A DNA stretch of 64,000 bases from an uncultured Bacilli bacterium (GCA_947625505.1 CANQON010000002.1:1-64000), one strand, 5' to 3'. Shown: positions 13,457 through 20,104, counted from the first letter of the stretch. Made by a program: numbers and translations. Notes: generated by a model from the letters alone, not told the origin.

Positions 13457-14674
13457 ATGAAAAAGAAAATAATAATTATTGTTAGTAGTATCGTTATATT
13501 AGTTATTTTACTTCTTACAATTTATTTTTTATATCAAAAAAATAAGAAGCAAAAAGAAATCGAAGAAGCAAAAGAATCTTTAATCGTTAATAAAGAAATT
13601 AAAGTATCTTTTAATAGTAAGAGTAAAGTGTCAGATAATATCGAATCTATCGATGGAGAAATAATTGATGATTATGATATCGATACAACTAAATTAGGTA
13701 AACAAACGATTAATTTTAAGTTTAAAACTAGTAATGATATAGAAATACCTTATAGTTATAATATTGAAGTAGTAGATAATACACCTCCTGTTATTTGGGT
13801 AAGTAATAGTTATAGTGTTAAAAAAGGTAGTAGTAAAGATTTCTATAAAAAAATATTATGTGGTGATGATACTGATCCTAATCCTAATTGTTATATAGAA
13901 GGGGATTATGATTTAAATAAAGTAGGTAATTATCCTGTTGTTTTTAAAGCTATTGATAAAAGTGGTAATATTAAAGAAGAACCTATTACTTTAAAAGTAT
14001 ATGAAAGTAAAGGTAGTAGCTCAAGCAGTTCTAAACCTAAACTATTAATTCAAGATGTCATAAAAAATTATAAAACAGAAAATACCAGAATAGGTATTGA
14101 TGTTTCATCATGGCAAGGCGATATTGATTATCAAAAAGTAAAAGATGCAGGAATAGAATTTGTTATTATTCGTGTTGGAAGTACAAGAGGCACTAATGGT
14201 GAATACTTTGTTGATAGTAAATTTAAACGTAATATTGAAGAAGCTAAAGCTCATGGTTTATTAGTTGGTTTATACTTTTATTCTTATGCTGATAGTGAAG
14301 AATCTGCTAAAAAAGATGCTCTATGGCTTATTGATCAAATAAAAGGTTATGATATAGATTTACCTATTGCTTTTGATTGGGAAGATTGGTCACACTTTAA
14401 TACCTATAATATAAGTTTTTATACTTTAACTAATATGTCTCAAGTATTTACTGATACCTTAGAAGCTCATGGATATCAAGGTATGTTATATGGTAGTAAA
14501 TTATATTTAGAACAACTTTTCTTACCTAATAATCAAATTAAATGGTTAGCGCATTATACTAATAAAACGAATTATCAAGAAGACTATTTATTTTGGCAAA
14601 TGTCTAGTGTTGGAAAAGTAGATGGTATTAAAGGAAATGTTGATATCGATATTATGTATTTAAAAAATAGTTAA
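13457..14674 (+). CDS. Membrane-anchored GH25 lysozyme with a bacterial Ig-like domain
   Basis: 405 aa. An N-terminal hydrophobic helix (about residues 5-26) anchors it to the membrane. Residues about 45-185 form Ig-like/bacterial adhesion-type strands (one repeat reads DNTPPVIWV). A Ser-rich linker follows. Residues 210-403 are a GH25 muramidase: GIDVSSWQG with Asp215 and AFDWEDW with Asp307/Glu309 as the likely catalytic acids. It should cleave MurNAc-GlcNAc bonds in peptidoglycan outside the membrane. It is the last gene of the FAD-oxidoreductase operon and its stop is buried in a terminator. Confidence 0.88.
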   Translation: MKKKIIIIVSSIVILVILLLTIYFLYQKNKKQKEIEEAKESLIVNKEIKVSFNSKSKVSDNIESIDGEIIDDYDIDTTKLGKQTINFKFKTSNDIEIPYSYNIEVVDNTPPVIWVSNSYSVKKGSSKDFYKKILCGDDTDPNPNCYIEGDYDLNKVGNYPVVFKAIDKSGNIKEEPITLKVYESKGSSSSSSKPKLLIQDVIKNYKTENTRIGIDVSSWQGDIDYQKVKDAGIEFVIIRVGSTRGTNGEYFVDSKFKRNIEEAKAHGLLVGLYFYSYADSEESAKKDALWLIDQIKGYDIDLPIAFDWEDWSHFNTYNISFYTLTNMSQVFTDTLEAHGYQGMLYGSKLYLEQLFLPNNQIKWLAHYTNKTNYQEDYLFWQMSSVGKVDGIKGNVDIDIMYLKNS

Positions 14675-15857: not shown

Positions 15858-15880
15858 ATATAGGAGAGTAGGTGATTAAG

Positions 15881-17983
15881 ATGACTAAAAAGAAAATAAT
15901 ATTTATCTTTGTTTTCATAGTATCTTTTTTCACTTTTTATAAAAATGTAAGTGCTGATTATTTAGCAACTTTCTATTCAGATAATAAGTGTGCTTTAACA
16001 AAAGGCGCAACAGGAAATTGCTTTTATAAAAATACTTCTTTTACTAGTGCAGGACCAATATGGTTAGATACAGGAGATATGATAACAGTTCATACTAATG
16101 TAACACCTATTCCTGCTCCAACTAAAGGTAATGGTAGTGAATGTAAAACAACATTCTCATATGTATCTAATACTTATAAAAATAAAACATATAATGGATA
16201 TGTATGTACTGCTAATATACGTAGAATTGATAGTACGGATGGTATATCAGAAGAAATAAAAACAGAATTTAAAAATAATAAATTACCTGAAAGTTATTGG
16301 GCTAAATTAGCCATATTAAAAGAAAAACATCCAAATTGGACTTTTGTAGGTATTGATACAGGTTTAGATTTTAATACAGCAGTATCTAAGGAAGATTCTG
16401 GTAAAAAAAGTTTAATTCAATCAACTAGTACAGCATCTCAAGGATATTTATCTACTAAAGAAACAAATTATAATTGGAAAACGAATAAATTTACAGCTTA
16501 TGATGGTAGTACTTGGTTTGCTGCTAATAAAGAAACAATAGCTTATTATATGGATCCACGTAATTTCTTTTCCGAAATGTATATCTTCCAATTTGAATTA
16601 TTATCATATGATCCTAATATTCATACTTTAGAAGGAGTTAAAGAAGTACTTGGTAATTCTTATATAAGTAAATTTGCAGAATTATTTATTAAAGCAGGAG
16701 AACAAGAAAAAGTAAATCCTATTTATTTAGCTTCTTTATCAAGGCAAGAAGTAGGAGGAGGTACGACAGCAGGACGTGCTGTATCAGGAAAAGCTTTTAC
16801 TTATAATGGTGTTACCTATAATCATGCTGTTTATAATTTCTATAATATTGGAGCAACTAGTGGTAGTGATGGCTTGTCAGCTATTAGAGGATTAGTATAT
16901 GCTAATGGAGGAGAAAATAAATCAGGAGGTTATGGCTCTAATACTTCTTATAAGTTACCTTGGACGACTGAAGAAAAAGCTATTATTGGAGGAGCTGCCT
17001 GGATATCTAAAGGATATATAAGTAGAGGACAAGATACAAGTTATTTTAAAAAATGGGATGTTCAATCTATAAAAAGAGATGGTTCTAAATATACAGATCT
17101 ATATAGTCATCAATATATGCAAAATATTATGGCTCCATACTCTGAAGCTATTACATCATTTAATTCATATTATGATCGTAAAGCTTTAGATTCTAATTTT
17201 ACTTTTTATATTCCTGTTTATTCTCATATGCCTGAATCGACTAGTTTACCTCCACAAGGAAATCCTAATAATTATTTATCTACTCTTCAATATAATGATG
17301 GTACTGGAAATAAAAACGTTAATAACTTTAGTGGTGATGTAACTATTTATGAATTCCATGTCGCTAATGGTGTTACTAATGTTACTTTTACAGCTAAAGC
17401 TATTGCTAGTACTTCTAAGGTTGCTATTAGTGGAGGAACTAATTTAGTAGTAGGAGATAATACGGCTACTATTAAAGTAACAGCAGGTAATGGTAGTGTT
17501 AAAAATTATACGATTAAAATTATTCGTGATGAAGCATTAGGTGATATTAAACCTTTAAAACAAATTATTGAAGAATCTAAATTCAATATTGATGGTGAAT
17601 ATTTAACAGGATTAACACTTACAACATCAGTTGATAATATTAAAGCTGTTATTAATAAAGTTGAATCAAGAGCTAGTGTAACTATTAAACGTAGTGATAA
17701 AGAAATTACATCAGGAAATGTAGTAACAGGTGATATTGTAACAATATCTAATGGAAATGAAAGTATTAACTATACAGTTGTTTTATATGGTGATACTAAT
17801 AGTGATGGTAAAATTAATGCTTTAGATTTATTAAGAGTTCAAAAACATATTTTAGGAACTAATAAATTAACAGGTGTTTATTATAAAGCAGCTGATGTTA
17901 GTAAAGATGGTAATATAAATGCTTTAGATTTATTAAAAGTTCAAAAACATATTTTAGGTAGTGCTTTTATAGTACAACAATAG
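15881..17983 (+). CDS. Secreted beta-N-acetylglucosaminidase with C-terminal dockerin
   Basis: About 700 aa from ATG 15881; the upstream GTG 15872 lies inside the ribosome site. A signal peptide ends near VSA. Residues about 125-420 match the LytD/GH73 glucosaminidase region (HPNWTFVGIDTGLDF, ASLSRQEVG with a candidate catalytic Glu, NFYNIGA). It should cut the glycan strands of peptidoglycan. A cadherin-like beta-sandwich follows (about residues 485-550). The C-terminal 60 residues form a type I dockerin: two Ca-binding loops, GDTNSDGKINALD and ADVSKDGNINALD, each followed by a near-identical helix with VQKHILG. No wall-anchor sorting signal is seen, so the dockerin is the likely attachment device. 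The next gene encodes a matching cohesin-like anchor. Confidence 0.85.
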   Translation: MTKKKIIFIFVFIVSFFTFYKNVSADYLATFYSDNKCALTKGATGNCFYKNTSFTSAGPIWLDTGDMITVHTNVTPIPAPTKGNGSECKTTFSYVSNTYKNKTYNGYVCTANIRRIDSTDGISEEIKTEFKNNKLPESYWAKLAILKEKHPNWTFVGIDTGLDFNTAVSKEDSGKKSLIQSTSTASQGYLSTKETNYNWKTNKFTAYDGSTWFAANKETIAYYMDPRNFFSEMYIFQFELLSYDPNIHTLEGVKEVLGNSYISKFAELFIKAGEQEKVNPIYLASLSRQEVGGGTTAGRAVSGKAFTYNGVTYNHAVYNFYNIGATSGSDGLSAIRGLVYANGGENKSGGYGSNTSYKLPWTTEEKAIIGGAAWISKGYISRGQDTSYFKKWDVQSIKRDGSKYTDLYSHQYMQNIMAPYSEAITSFNSYYDRKALDSNFTFYIPVYSHMPESTSLPPQGNPNNYLSTLQYNDGTGNKNVNNFSGDVTIYEFHVANGVTNVTFTAKAIASTSKVAISGGTNLVVGDNTATIKVTAGNGSVKNYTIKIIRDEALGDIKPLKQIIEESKFNIDGEYLTGLTLTTSVDNIKAVINKVESRASVTIKRSDKEITSGNVVTGDIVTISNGNESINYTVVLYGDTNSDGKINALDLLRVQKHILGTNKLTGVYYKAADVSKDGNINALDLLKVQKHILGSAFIVQQ

Positions 17984-17992
17984 GAGGTTTAT

Positions 17993-19321
17993 ATGAAAAA
18001 GATATTTAAAATTATAAGTTTTTCGATAACGTTCTTTATATCCTTTTTATTTATTAATAATGTTTATGCAGCTACAGCTAATATTAAAATTAAAACTAAT
18101 AAATCAACCTATATAGTAGGTGATACGGTTACAGCAACGATAACATTATCTTCAAGTCAAGCATTAGGTTCTTGGGATTTTGTTGTTAAATATGATAGTG
18201 CTTATCTAACCTTTCAATCATCTAATTTAGAGGGTAGTGATCAAGCTGTTAATACAGTTTATAATAATACAACGAAATCTAAAAGTTATACGATGAAATT
18301 TAAAGTAAAAAAAGCAGGAACGACTAAATTATCTATTCAAAGTGGAGGAGAAGTATATGCTTATAATGAATCAAAAATGACGATTTCTTCTAATTCTGTT
18401 TCATTAAAAGCTATAACGCGTACTGATTATGAAAATTCTCTTTCTAAAGATAATACTTTGAAGAGTCTATCAGTTGATGGATATGAATTAACGCCTAAAT
18501 TTGATAAGAATACTACTAGTTATAGCTTAACAGTACCTAATGATGTTCGAAGTATTAAAGTAAACGCTACTAAAAATGATAGTAAAGCTACCTTACATGG
18601 TGGAGGTACTATAAAGTTAAATGAAGGAGTTAATAAAGTATCTATTGAAGTAGAAGCTGAAAATGGTAATTCTAAAACTTATGTTATTAATGTTACTGTA
18701 GCTGAATTAGATCCTATTGAAGTAGAAGTAGATGGTAAGACATATACTATTGTAAGAAAAAGAGAAAACATGACAGCTCCATCTAATTATAGTGAAGCAA
18801 TAACTACAATTGATGGTGAAGAAGTACCTAGTTATGAAAGTGAGATTACAGGTTTTACTTTAGTAGGTCTTCTAGATAGTGATGGTAATATTAATTTATA
18901 TATTTATAAAGATAATAATTATACATTATATAATGAAATTAAATTTAATGGGGTAATTTTATATTCTAGTAAGATAGATGATATTCCCTTTGATGATTAT
19001 AAAACCCAAAAAGTAACGATAGGTAATGAAGAGTTAGATGGTGTTATCTTAGAAGGATTAAATTATCCTTTAGTATATGGCATGAATGTTGAAACGGGTA
19101 AAAGTGATTGGTATACGTTTGATGAAAAAGAAAATACGTTACAGAGATATGTTGCTACAGAAGTAAAAAAAGTAGTAGCAAATGATAAATATCAGACTTT
19201 AGCGATTATTTTAGGTTGTACTTCAGGATTACTTTTCATCTTTCTTATCATATTAACTATTAAGCTTTCCCATTCTAAAAAAAATATTAATGTAGAAAGC
19301 AAAATAAAAGAAGAAAAATAA
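17993..19321 (+). CDS. Membrane-anchored surface protein with a cohesin-like domain
   Basis: 442 aa. Signal peptide about 1-26 (cleavage after VYA). Residues 28-140 have the cohesin pattern: the strand with GDTVTATITLSSSQALGSWD, then VVKYDSAYLTFQS and a C-terminal beta sandwich. Residues 148-237 are a cadherin-like beta-sandwich domain. An unassigned beta-rich region occupies 240-395. A membrane helix (about 401-425) with a lysine-rich cytoplasmic tail holds the protein on the cell. AGGAGG lies 4 nt before the ATG and the gene starts 9 nt after the dockerin-autolysin stop, so both are made together. I infer that it binds the partner's dockerin. The cohesin call rests on pattern, not on a search. 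Confidence 0.7.
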   Translation: MKKIFKIISFSITFFISFLFINNVYAATANIKIKTNKSTYIVGDTVTATITLSSSQALGSWDFVVKYDSAYLTFQSSNLEGSDQAVNTVYNNTTKSKSYTMKFKVKKAGTTKLSIQSGGEVYAYNESKMTISSNSVSLKAITRTDYENSLSKDNTLKSLSVDGYELTPKFDKNTTSYSLTVPNDVRSIKVNATKNDSKATLHGGGTIKLNEGVNKVSIEVEAENGNSKTYVINVTVAELDPIEVEVDGKTYTIVRKRENMTAPSNYSEAITTIDGEEVPSYESEITGFTLVGLLDSDGNINLYIYKDNNYTLYNEIKFNGVILYSSKIDDIPFDDYKTQKVTIGNEELDGVILEGLNYPLVYGMNVETGKSDWYTFDEKENTLQRYVATEVKKVVANDKYQTLAIILGCTSGLLFIFLIILTIKLSHSKKNINVESKIKEEK

Positions 19322-19335
19322 TTTTCTTCTTTTTT
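19302..19335. terminator. Bidirectional terminator between convergent genes
   Basis: AAAAGAAGAAAA (19306-19317) pairs with TTTTCTTCTTTT (19322-19333), with A-rich and T-rich flanks on the two sides. It contains the plus-strand stop at 19319-19321 and touches the minus-strand stop at 19334. Confidence 0.75.
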
Positions 19336-20104
19336 AATATACTTTTGTTTCTGTATCTTCACTTTGATGATAGCCTAACTTTAATGATTCTTCTAATTTT
19401 TCTTTTAATTGTTCAATTTCGACTTTTAGTTTTCCACGTTCAGGATTTACAATATAGATTGTTGTTCCATCACGTAAGAAAGAATTACTTAAGTTATTTT
19501 TTCTCATGATTTGATCTTTTATTGCGTAGGCTTCGTTGGTATTACCTGCTCCTAAATAGGCTAATCCTAAAATTGAATCGCCTGGTTCAACAACATATTC
19601 AACCCATTCAGGCAGTTGTTCTAATTCAGCTCTTTTAGCATTTATCTGTGTTAAAAAGATATTATCTTCGTTAATTAAAGCAGGTATTTGTAAACTTTGA
19701 TAAGGAGTTATATGTCCTCCTTTAGCGTTATTTAATTCCTTAATATCATCTACATAATCATTAAAACTTTCATAATATGAATCATAGAGTTCAGCATCAT
19801 AATATTCTTTAGCAATATCATATATCGTATCTCCACGTTCTACTTGATATGATGCATATACTTGTTGATATCCCTCAGGCATAACAGGATTAAATGGTTC
19901 TTTACCATGACTAAATAATCCTGTAATAGCGCCTATTGATATAACTGATGCTGCTGCAATAGCGATAAATCTATTTCTTCTTTGAATACGAAGTCTTTCT
20001 TTTCTTCTTAAACGAGCTTGATTAAGCTTTCTTAAACGTATGCGTTCTTCTTCAGAAACTCTTTGATAAGTATCTTCAAATGTTTCTCTTTCTCTATATT
20101 CCAT
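19334..20104 (-). CDS. Membrane protein with two LysM domains
   Basis: 256 aa. A long, basic, Arg/Glu-rich cytoplasmic N-terminus (about residues 1-45) is followed by a single membrane helix (about 46-64), then an outward-facing part. It has two LysM-like domains: YQVERGDTIYDIAKEYY (about 87-145) and YVVEPGDSILGLAYLGA (about 170-220). A short coiled-coil tail (KLKVEIEQLKEKLEESL) ends it. LysM binds GlcNAc-containing glycan, so this is probably a type II membrane protein attached to peptidoglycan. No catalytic domain is seen. It lies 60 nt downstream of the SpoVB-like gene on the same strand. Confidence 0.8.
   Translation of the reverse strand: MEYRERETFEDTYQRVSEEERIRLRKLNQARLRRKERLRIQRRNRFIAIAAASVISIGAITGLFSHGKEPFNPVMPEGYQQVYASYQVERGDTIYDIAKEYYDAELYDSYYESFNDYVDDIKELNNAKGGHITPYQSLQIPALINEDNIFLTQINAKRAELEQLPEWVEYVVEPGDSILGLAYLGAGNTNEAYAIKDQIMRKNNLSNSFLRDGTTIYIVNPERGKLKVEIEQLKEKLEESLKLGYHQSEDTETKVY

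Follow-up and report, generated by a model that had tools for sequence, protein, structure and literature searches.

A Predicted Membrane-Anchored Cohesin Receptor for a Dockerin-Bearing Wall Glucosaminidase in Uncultured Bacilli

Introduction

Cohesin-dockerin pairs are best known from cellulosomes. What such a pair might do when the dockerin is carried by a putative cell-wall hydrolase, and the cohesin by a membrane protein encoded in the very next gene, is the question raised by two adjacent genes, here termed A and B, in a 64,000-nucleotide stretch of DNA from an uncultured Bacilli bacterium (the window). The reading favored here, to which a probability of roughly 0.8 is assigned, is that A and B form a dedicated receptor-ligand pair that holds one GH73-like glucosaminidase at the membrane. 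Its likeliest use there would be on near-membrane glycan.

The Dockerin-Bearing Enzyme

Gene A occupies 15881..17983 on the plus strand, as do all features described for A and B, and its open reading frame and domain matches describe a secreted GH73-like glucosaminidase with an X-like module and a dockerin. The longest frame opens with a GTG codon at 15872; counted from the ATG at 15881, the product is 700 residues long. Its first 28 codons (15881..15964) read as a probable signal peptide, with a basic start, a hydrophobic run and the residues NVSA. The GH73-like catalytic region (16469..17173) matches staphylococcal glucosaminidases of known structure (6fxo, E 3.5e-8; also 6u0o and 6fxp). The match to the NCBIfam SagB model is weak, at 40 bits against a model cut-off of 425, and a Pfam scan at E 0.1 reported no PF01832 (GH73) in this protein. 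The presumed catalytic glutamate is encoded at 16748 (residue 290 from the ATG) and is kept in 98/98 aligned relatives. Hydrolysis of peptidoglycan glycan by A is presumed from the GH73 similarity and this residue.

The catalytic region is followed by a cadherin-like domain (17267..17533; PF12733, E 6.2e-8) and by a module resembling the X-modules that precede some dockerins (17543..17776). The latter is recognized by its conservation, which extends even to relatives with a different enzyme part, and by X-dockerin chains from type II systems (2b59, 3kcp and 5g5d), which align with A starting at residue 609-610. The protein ends in a type I dockerin with two calcium-loop repeats (17780..17980), which matches PF00404 (Dockerin_1) at E 4.8e-17 over positions 1-57 of 57, and whose recognition helices read LDLLRVQKHIL and LDLLKVQKHIL. 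The original description of A as a secreted glucosaminidase with a C-terminal two-loop type I dockerin is thus borne out by the PF00404 match, the similarity to 6fxo and the hydrophobic N-terminus.

The Membrane Cohesin

Gene B (17993..19321), defined by its open reading frame, profile matches and neighborhood in relatives, encodes a predicted membrane-anchored cohesin receptor of 442 residues with a signal peptide at its N-terminus. The N-terminal domain (18068..18406) is assigned to the cohesins by profiles and predicted fold. It is followed by a cadherin-like domain (18440..18700; PF12733, E 3.3e-12) and by a conserved membrane-proximal domain (18698..19165), which serves here as the ortholog marker for B; this 155-residue domain has no Pfam or NCBIfam family match. 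A transmembrane helix, LAIILGCTSGLLFIFLIILTIKL, is read from the sequence at 19199..19267 and is followed by a short basic tail. The B sequence has no LPXTG motif before this helix, as sortase anchoring would call for.

The cohesin assignment comes from several lines of comparison. In the genome search, B matches PF00963 at 27.7 bits, just above the cut-off of 24.1, and hmmscan of the whole protein does not list this family. A profile built from 13 B orthologs finds solved scaffoldin cohesins as its best PDB matches (top E 7.6e-7). In the AlphaFold model the domain has a pLDDT above 90, and its closest PDB neighbors are mainly cohesins, the nearest being the Clostridium perfringens GH33 cohesin 2vo8 (TMt 0.70). 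The N-terminal domain is, on this modeled fold, a cohesin beta-sandwich. Residues 28-140 had been predicted to fold as a cohesin within a membrane protein, and both the fold comparison and the C-terminal helix agree with that prediction.

Genomic Context

The two genes meet at TAGGAGGTTTATATGAAA (17981..17998), where the stop codon of A overlaps the ribosome-binding site of B. The same overlap is found in 58/103 loci, which is consistent with a single operon.

The window itself holds two neighbors that may also be of interest. Shortly upstream of A, on the plus strand at 13457-14674, lies a gene for a GH25 lysozyme (PF01183, E 2.2e-31) whose N-terminus is hydrophobic, and a similarly sized and similarly ending gene is found upstream of A in the genus relatives L099, L100, L101 and L106. 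After B, on the minus strand at 19334-20104, lies a convergent gene whose product shows a membrane helix and, by eye, LysM-like repeats; it is possibly another wall protein.

The host genome surveyed (1.66 Mb, 95% complete) contains one match to PF00963 and one to a family-specific cohesin profile, both of them B. There are three matches to PF00404, the one strong match being A (66.8 bits, followed by 35.3 and 26.4 bits). Neither a multi-cohesin scaffoldin nor a set of dockerin enzymes was found in this genome with PF00963, the family profile and PF00404, and a cellulosome or scaffoldin was rejected as an explanation, since the genome has one cohesin, by two profiles, and one strong dockerin. 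A hand count over sampled genomes of the host's family gives 90 with dockerins, 54 of them with exactly one.

The two weaker dockerin matches lie in large proteins. One (L003, G000:C1 about 113090, plus strand) is a secreted protein of 1725 residues; close to its N-terminus it has a segment resembling a dockerin, in which A-type recognition residues are missing. The other (L004, G000:C25 about 9256, minus strand) is a giant of about 2400 residues. Its N-terminus is cohesin-like; two membrane helices come next, then a weak dockerin, and the long remainder is multidomain. Giants of this kind, also cohesin-like at the N-terminus, occur in several genus relatives, and the giant could be an intramolecular cohesin-dockerin pair. 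The claim that A and B pair one to one therefore stands for the strong dockerin and for the sole cohesin of B's family, and is qualified by the giant, with its weak dockerin and weak cohesin-like N-terminus.

Conservation of the Pair

With the membrane-proximal domain as marker, B was found in 184/291 sampled genomes of the host's family, representing 100/150 genera, and also in three other families of the class Bacilli (f13, f16 and f19). In the host's family, a dockerin reading frame directly adjoins B on the same strand in 106/107 loci from about 90 genera; at the one exception (L139), an A-type neighbor without a detectable dockerin lies beside B. In the other families, a dockerin gene neighbors B in 16/18 loci (16 genomes). 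Among these 18 loci, the two without a dockerin neighbor are exactly the two (L201 and L202) in which the B ortholog starts at the cadherin-like domain, its N-terminal domain gone. By their sequences, L201 and L202 are natural losses of B's socket together with the dockerin.

The same association holds at the level of genomes. Among 117 genomes, dockerins are present in 78/79 with B and in 12/38 without it (Fisher p 9e-16). The wall-synthesis gene murG is present in the host and in 110/117 of the genomes (105 above the cut-off), so loss of the wall is unsupported as an explanation for absence of B. B is missing from about a third of the host's family, in which murG is nearly universal; the pair is therefore not required for having a wall.

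The enzyme part is also largely constant. A GH73-like profile matched 100 of the 122 A proteins. Two of the remaining 22 are cut by contig ends, two (L205 and L212) lay outside the domain scan, and the 18 scanned comprise 15 PF01832 glucosaminidases and three other proteins. At these three loci the partner of B is a GH25 lysozyme (L199), an M6 peptidase encoded in reversed gene order (L060) or a protein of metallo-beta-lactamase fold (L210), the last two not being wall hydrolases. As judged from their sequences, these are cargo swaps on the same B socket, and the dockerin partner of B is nearly always assigned to a wall-hydrolase family.

Whether several dockerins share one socket was also considered. 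As a general arrangement this was rejected, because in dockerin-rich genomes most of the extra dockerins lack A-type recognition residues. In each of two genomes (G108, locus L229; G105, locus L231), one additional dockerin, encoded away from the pair, does have them, and a single B socket may receive two or more cargoes there.

Proposed Mechanism

The domain order of the two proteins suggests how they would work together. B would be a type I membrane protein, its cohesin carried outward by the cadherin-like stalk. A would be exported by its signal peptide, and its C-terminal dockerin would be captured by the B cohesin at the membrane, which would confine the glucosaminidase to the space that separates membrane from wall. 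There it could work on near-membrane glycan, shortening new strands or setting them free in the manner of SagB-SpdC, and the tether would also prevent the enzyme from escaping the cell. In Staphylococcus aureus, SagB-SpdC sets glycan length and has been described as releasing nascent strands (PMC12272431). It is likely, from the anatomy of both proteins, that B tethers A at the membrane. The proposal that a one-to-one pair tethers a peptidoglycan hydrolase there is upheld as far as the domain order of A and B goes, and remains a prediction with regard to binding and membrane location.

A non-covalent anchor may suit these organisms. Orders related to the host are inferred to be thin-walled, and two of them, RFN20 and ML615J-28, are inferred to be without sortases (PMC10868615); a thin wall and the lack of sortase may, by extension, favor such an anchor.

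The controlled placement of an autolysin, the function originally suggested for the pair, would be one possible use. The natural substrate of a tethered A may be the cell's own nascent peptidoglycan, a suggestion drawn from analogy and given not far short of an even chance. The main alternative accepts that the pair binds and holds that A is a digestive enzyme displayed at the surface for foreign peptidoglycan or glycans from neighbors, debris or the host, with the tether keeping products near. Surface display of single dockerin enzymes is known (PMC5429695), the cargo swaps at L060, L199 and L210 fit a display socket, and the orders RF39, RFN20 and ML615J-28 are predicted to be short of peptidoglycan precursor steps, possibly scavenging muropeptides (PMC10868615). 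However, B would be anchored in the membrane beneath the wall, with poor reach to outside substrates, and its partner, instead of varying among many digestive enzymes, is almost always a glucosaminidase. Display for digestion is accordingly held to be a tentative reading, with clearly less than an even chance.

Co-diversification and Binding

Both the near-membrane reading and surface display depend on A binding B. The dockerins next to B fall into recognition helix types, DLLxVQK, DYVxIKN, SADLLxxRQ and DALAxLR, and these types correspond to types of B N-domain. When N-domains are clustered by similarity (E<1e-10), 56/56 DLLxVQK loci fall in one cluster and 6/6 DALAxLR loci fall together, while 11/14 SADLLxxRQ and 17/21 DYVxIKN loci form clusters of their own; a rerun of the clustering joined the DALAxLR group with the SADLLxxRQ group. 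The best N-domain match belongs to the same dockerin class in 93/106 cases, compared to a mean of 36 and a maximum of 53 after shuffling.

Distances between dockerins correlate with distances between B N-domains (r 0.64), and the correlation hardly falls after control for the other parts of B and for A's X-module (partial r 0.62; 0/999 permutations, maximum 0.17). Down the columns of the dockerin, it is positions 10, 11, 13, 14, 17, 18 and 21 of each repeat that track the N-domain (r 0.27-0.62), while calcium-ligand and linker columns reach 0.17 or below; in this column-by-column run the control was B sequences that are cut short in some loci. The tracking columns include or adjoin positions 10, 11, 17, 18 and 22, which are known to contact cohesins.

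These patterns bear on the possibility that there is no binding at all, in which case the N-domain would serve general adhesion, the two genes would be adjacent simply as envelope genes, and the covariation would reflect shared ancestry. The sequences are indeed related by descent, and structure prediction gave no confident interface. For the latter, A and B were fused in one frame, with the intervening stop read as a residue. A 540-residue fusion modeled as a single chain gave good domains whose relative placement was not confident (pTM 0.43), and a 220-residue dockerin-cohesin fusion reached a pTM of 0.56 with dockerin pLDDT mostly 60-77 and no confident interface, the linker being B's hydrophobic signal peptide and the weights being those for single chains. 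These models were counted neither for nor against binding. As for descent, this ancestry is shared by the remaining parts of B and by A's X-module, which show much weaker tracking (dockerin versus rest of B, 0.10; X-module versus N-domain, 0.20), only the recognition columns track the N-domain, and close relatives that differ in N-domain type, such as L115 and L116, differ in dockerin type as well. An absence of binding is thus regarded as improbable. More improbable still is that the A dockerin binds another receptor, such as the 2400-residue giant, and the B cohesin something else, for although giants with a cohesin-like N-terminus recur in genus relatives, the family cohesin profile misses the giant in the window's genome, dockerin type follows B N-domain type across genera, and the two are lost together.

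Taken together, adjacency, co-occurrence, co-loss, covariation of recognition residues and the cohesin fold make it very likely that the A dockerin binds the B cohesin. The cohesin-dockerin pairing originally proposed is supported on each of these points, with physical binding as the part that is still predicted.

Two further features of the pair concern its specificity. The two dockerin repeats agree at 91% of tracking positions, compared to 52% of other variable positions, and in the window's dockerin they agree at 7/7. From this near-identity at recognition positions, a dual binding mode is predicted. In addition, the N-domain types appear to be related to each other. The DYVxIKN- and SADLLxxRQ-type N-domain profiles find no solved cohesin in the PDB by sequence, and hhalign links the cohesin-type N-domain to the DYVxIKN type at 97.8% and to the SADLLxxRQ type at 94.1%; given these links, the view that they are unrelated folds is unsupported. 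They are probably diverged, undescribed cohesin subtypes. DYV-type N-domains occur at L053, L054 and L056-L060, and SADLL-type N-domains at L116, L163, L178, L179, L185 and L188.

Relation to Known Systems

Type I dockerin and cohesin modules are common to A-B and to the cellulosome, the mucinolysome (PMC12997984) and the amylosome, all scaffoldin systems with which the A-B genome differs in having neither a multi-cohesin scaffoldin nor a set of dockerin enzymes. In Ruminococcus champanellensis, cell-wall hydrolases bear dockerins as A does (PMC6403190), but they join a cellulosome scaffoldin, while A has the dedicated receptor B.

Closer parallels are found outside scaffoldins. The cohesins and dockerins of Clostridium perfringens are borne by secreted enzymes themselves. 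Its cohesin-dockerin glycoside hydrolases resemble A-B in that the pairing is non-cellulosomal, and they supply the nearest cohesin folds (2vo8, 2jh2 and 2w1n); B differs from them in being a predicted membrane receptor without a catalytic domain. The OlpA and OlpC cohesins (3ul4 and 4dh2) are also among the fold matches of the B N-domain. In one cellulosome organism, surface cohesins are anchored to the S-layer and take plant-wall cargo. There, a dockerin enzyme is captured by a cohesin at the surface and not by the scaffoldin; its binding is single-mode, as it is in the one-to-one pairs outside cellulosomes that have been described to date (PMC5429695). A-B differs from that capture in its membrane-helix anchor, its wall-hydrolase enzyme, its arrangement in one operon and its symmetric repeats.

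In function, the nearest parallel is SagB-SpdC (LyrA) of Staphylococcus aureus, in which a membrane protein holds a glucosaminidase, as is proposed for A-B (PMC12272431). SpdC is an integral membrane protein of the CAAX-protease family, whereas B is a single-pass cohesin protein, with one membrane helix and no CAAX-protease-family Pfam match.

Implications

Each of the components has precedents: cohesins, dockerins and GH73 enzymes, the recruitment of single dockerin enzymes to the surface, and wall hydrolases that bear dockerins. The literature searched, which left most subscription journals outside, yielded no membrane-anchored cohesin devoted to a single wall glucosaminidase, conserved through a large lineage and co-diversified with its partner in specificity. 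With slightly better than even odds, the cohesin-dockerin pair is a standard membrane socket for one wall glucosaminidase across reductive Bacilli, replacing a fused anchor or sortase and occurring in at least four matched types.

About 100 natural matched pairs with varied recognition residues constitute a data set for orthogonal protein connectors, and L201 and L202, with their N-domains lost, are a useful natural control. The symmetric dockerins found here also make the view that dockerins in one-to-one pairs are single-mode directly testable. If the proposed role is true, the pair would join SagB-SpdC as a second means by which a glucosaminidase is kept at the membrane, and the cohesin-dockerin interaction would move from the digestion of plant fiber and glycans to the ordinary envelope biology of a large uncultured gut lineage.
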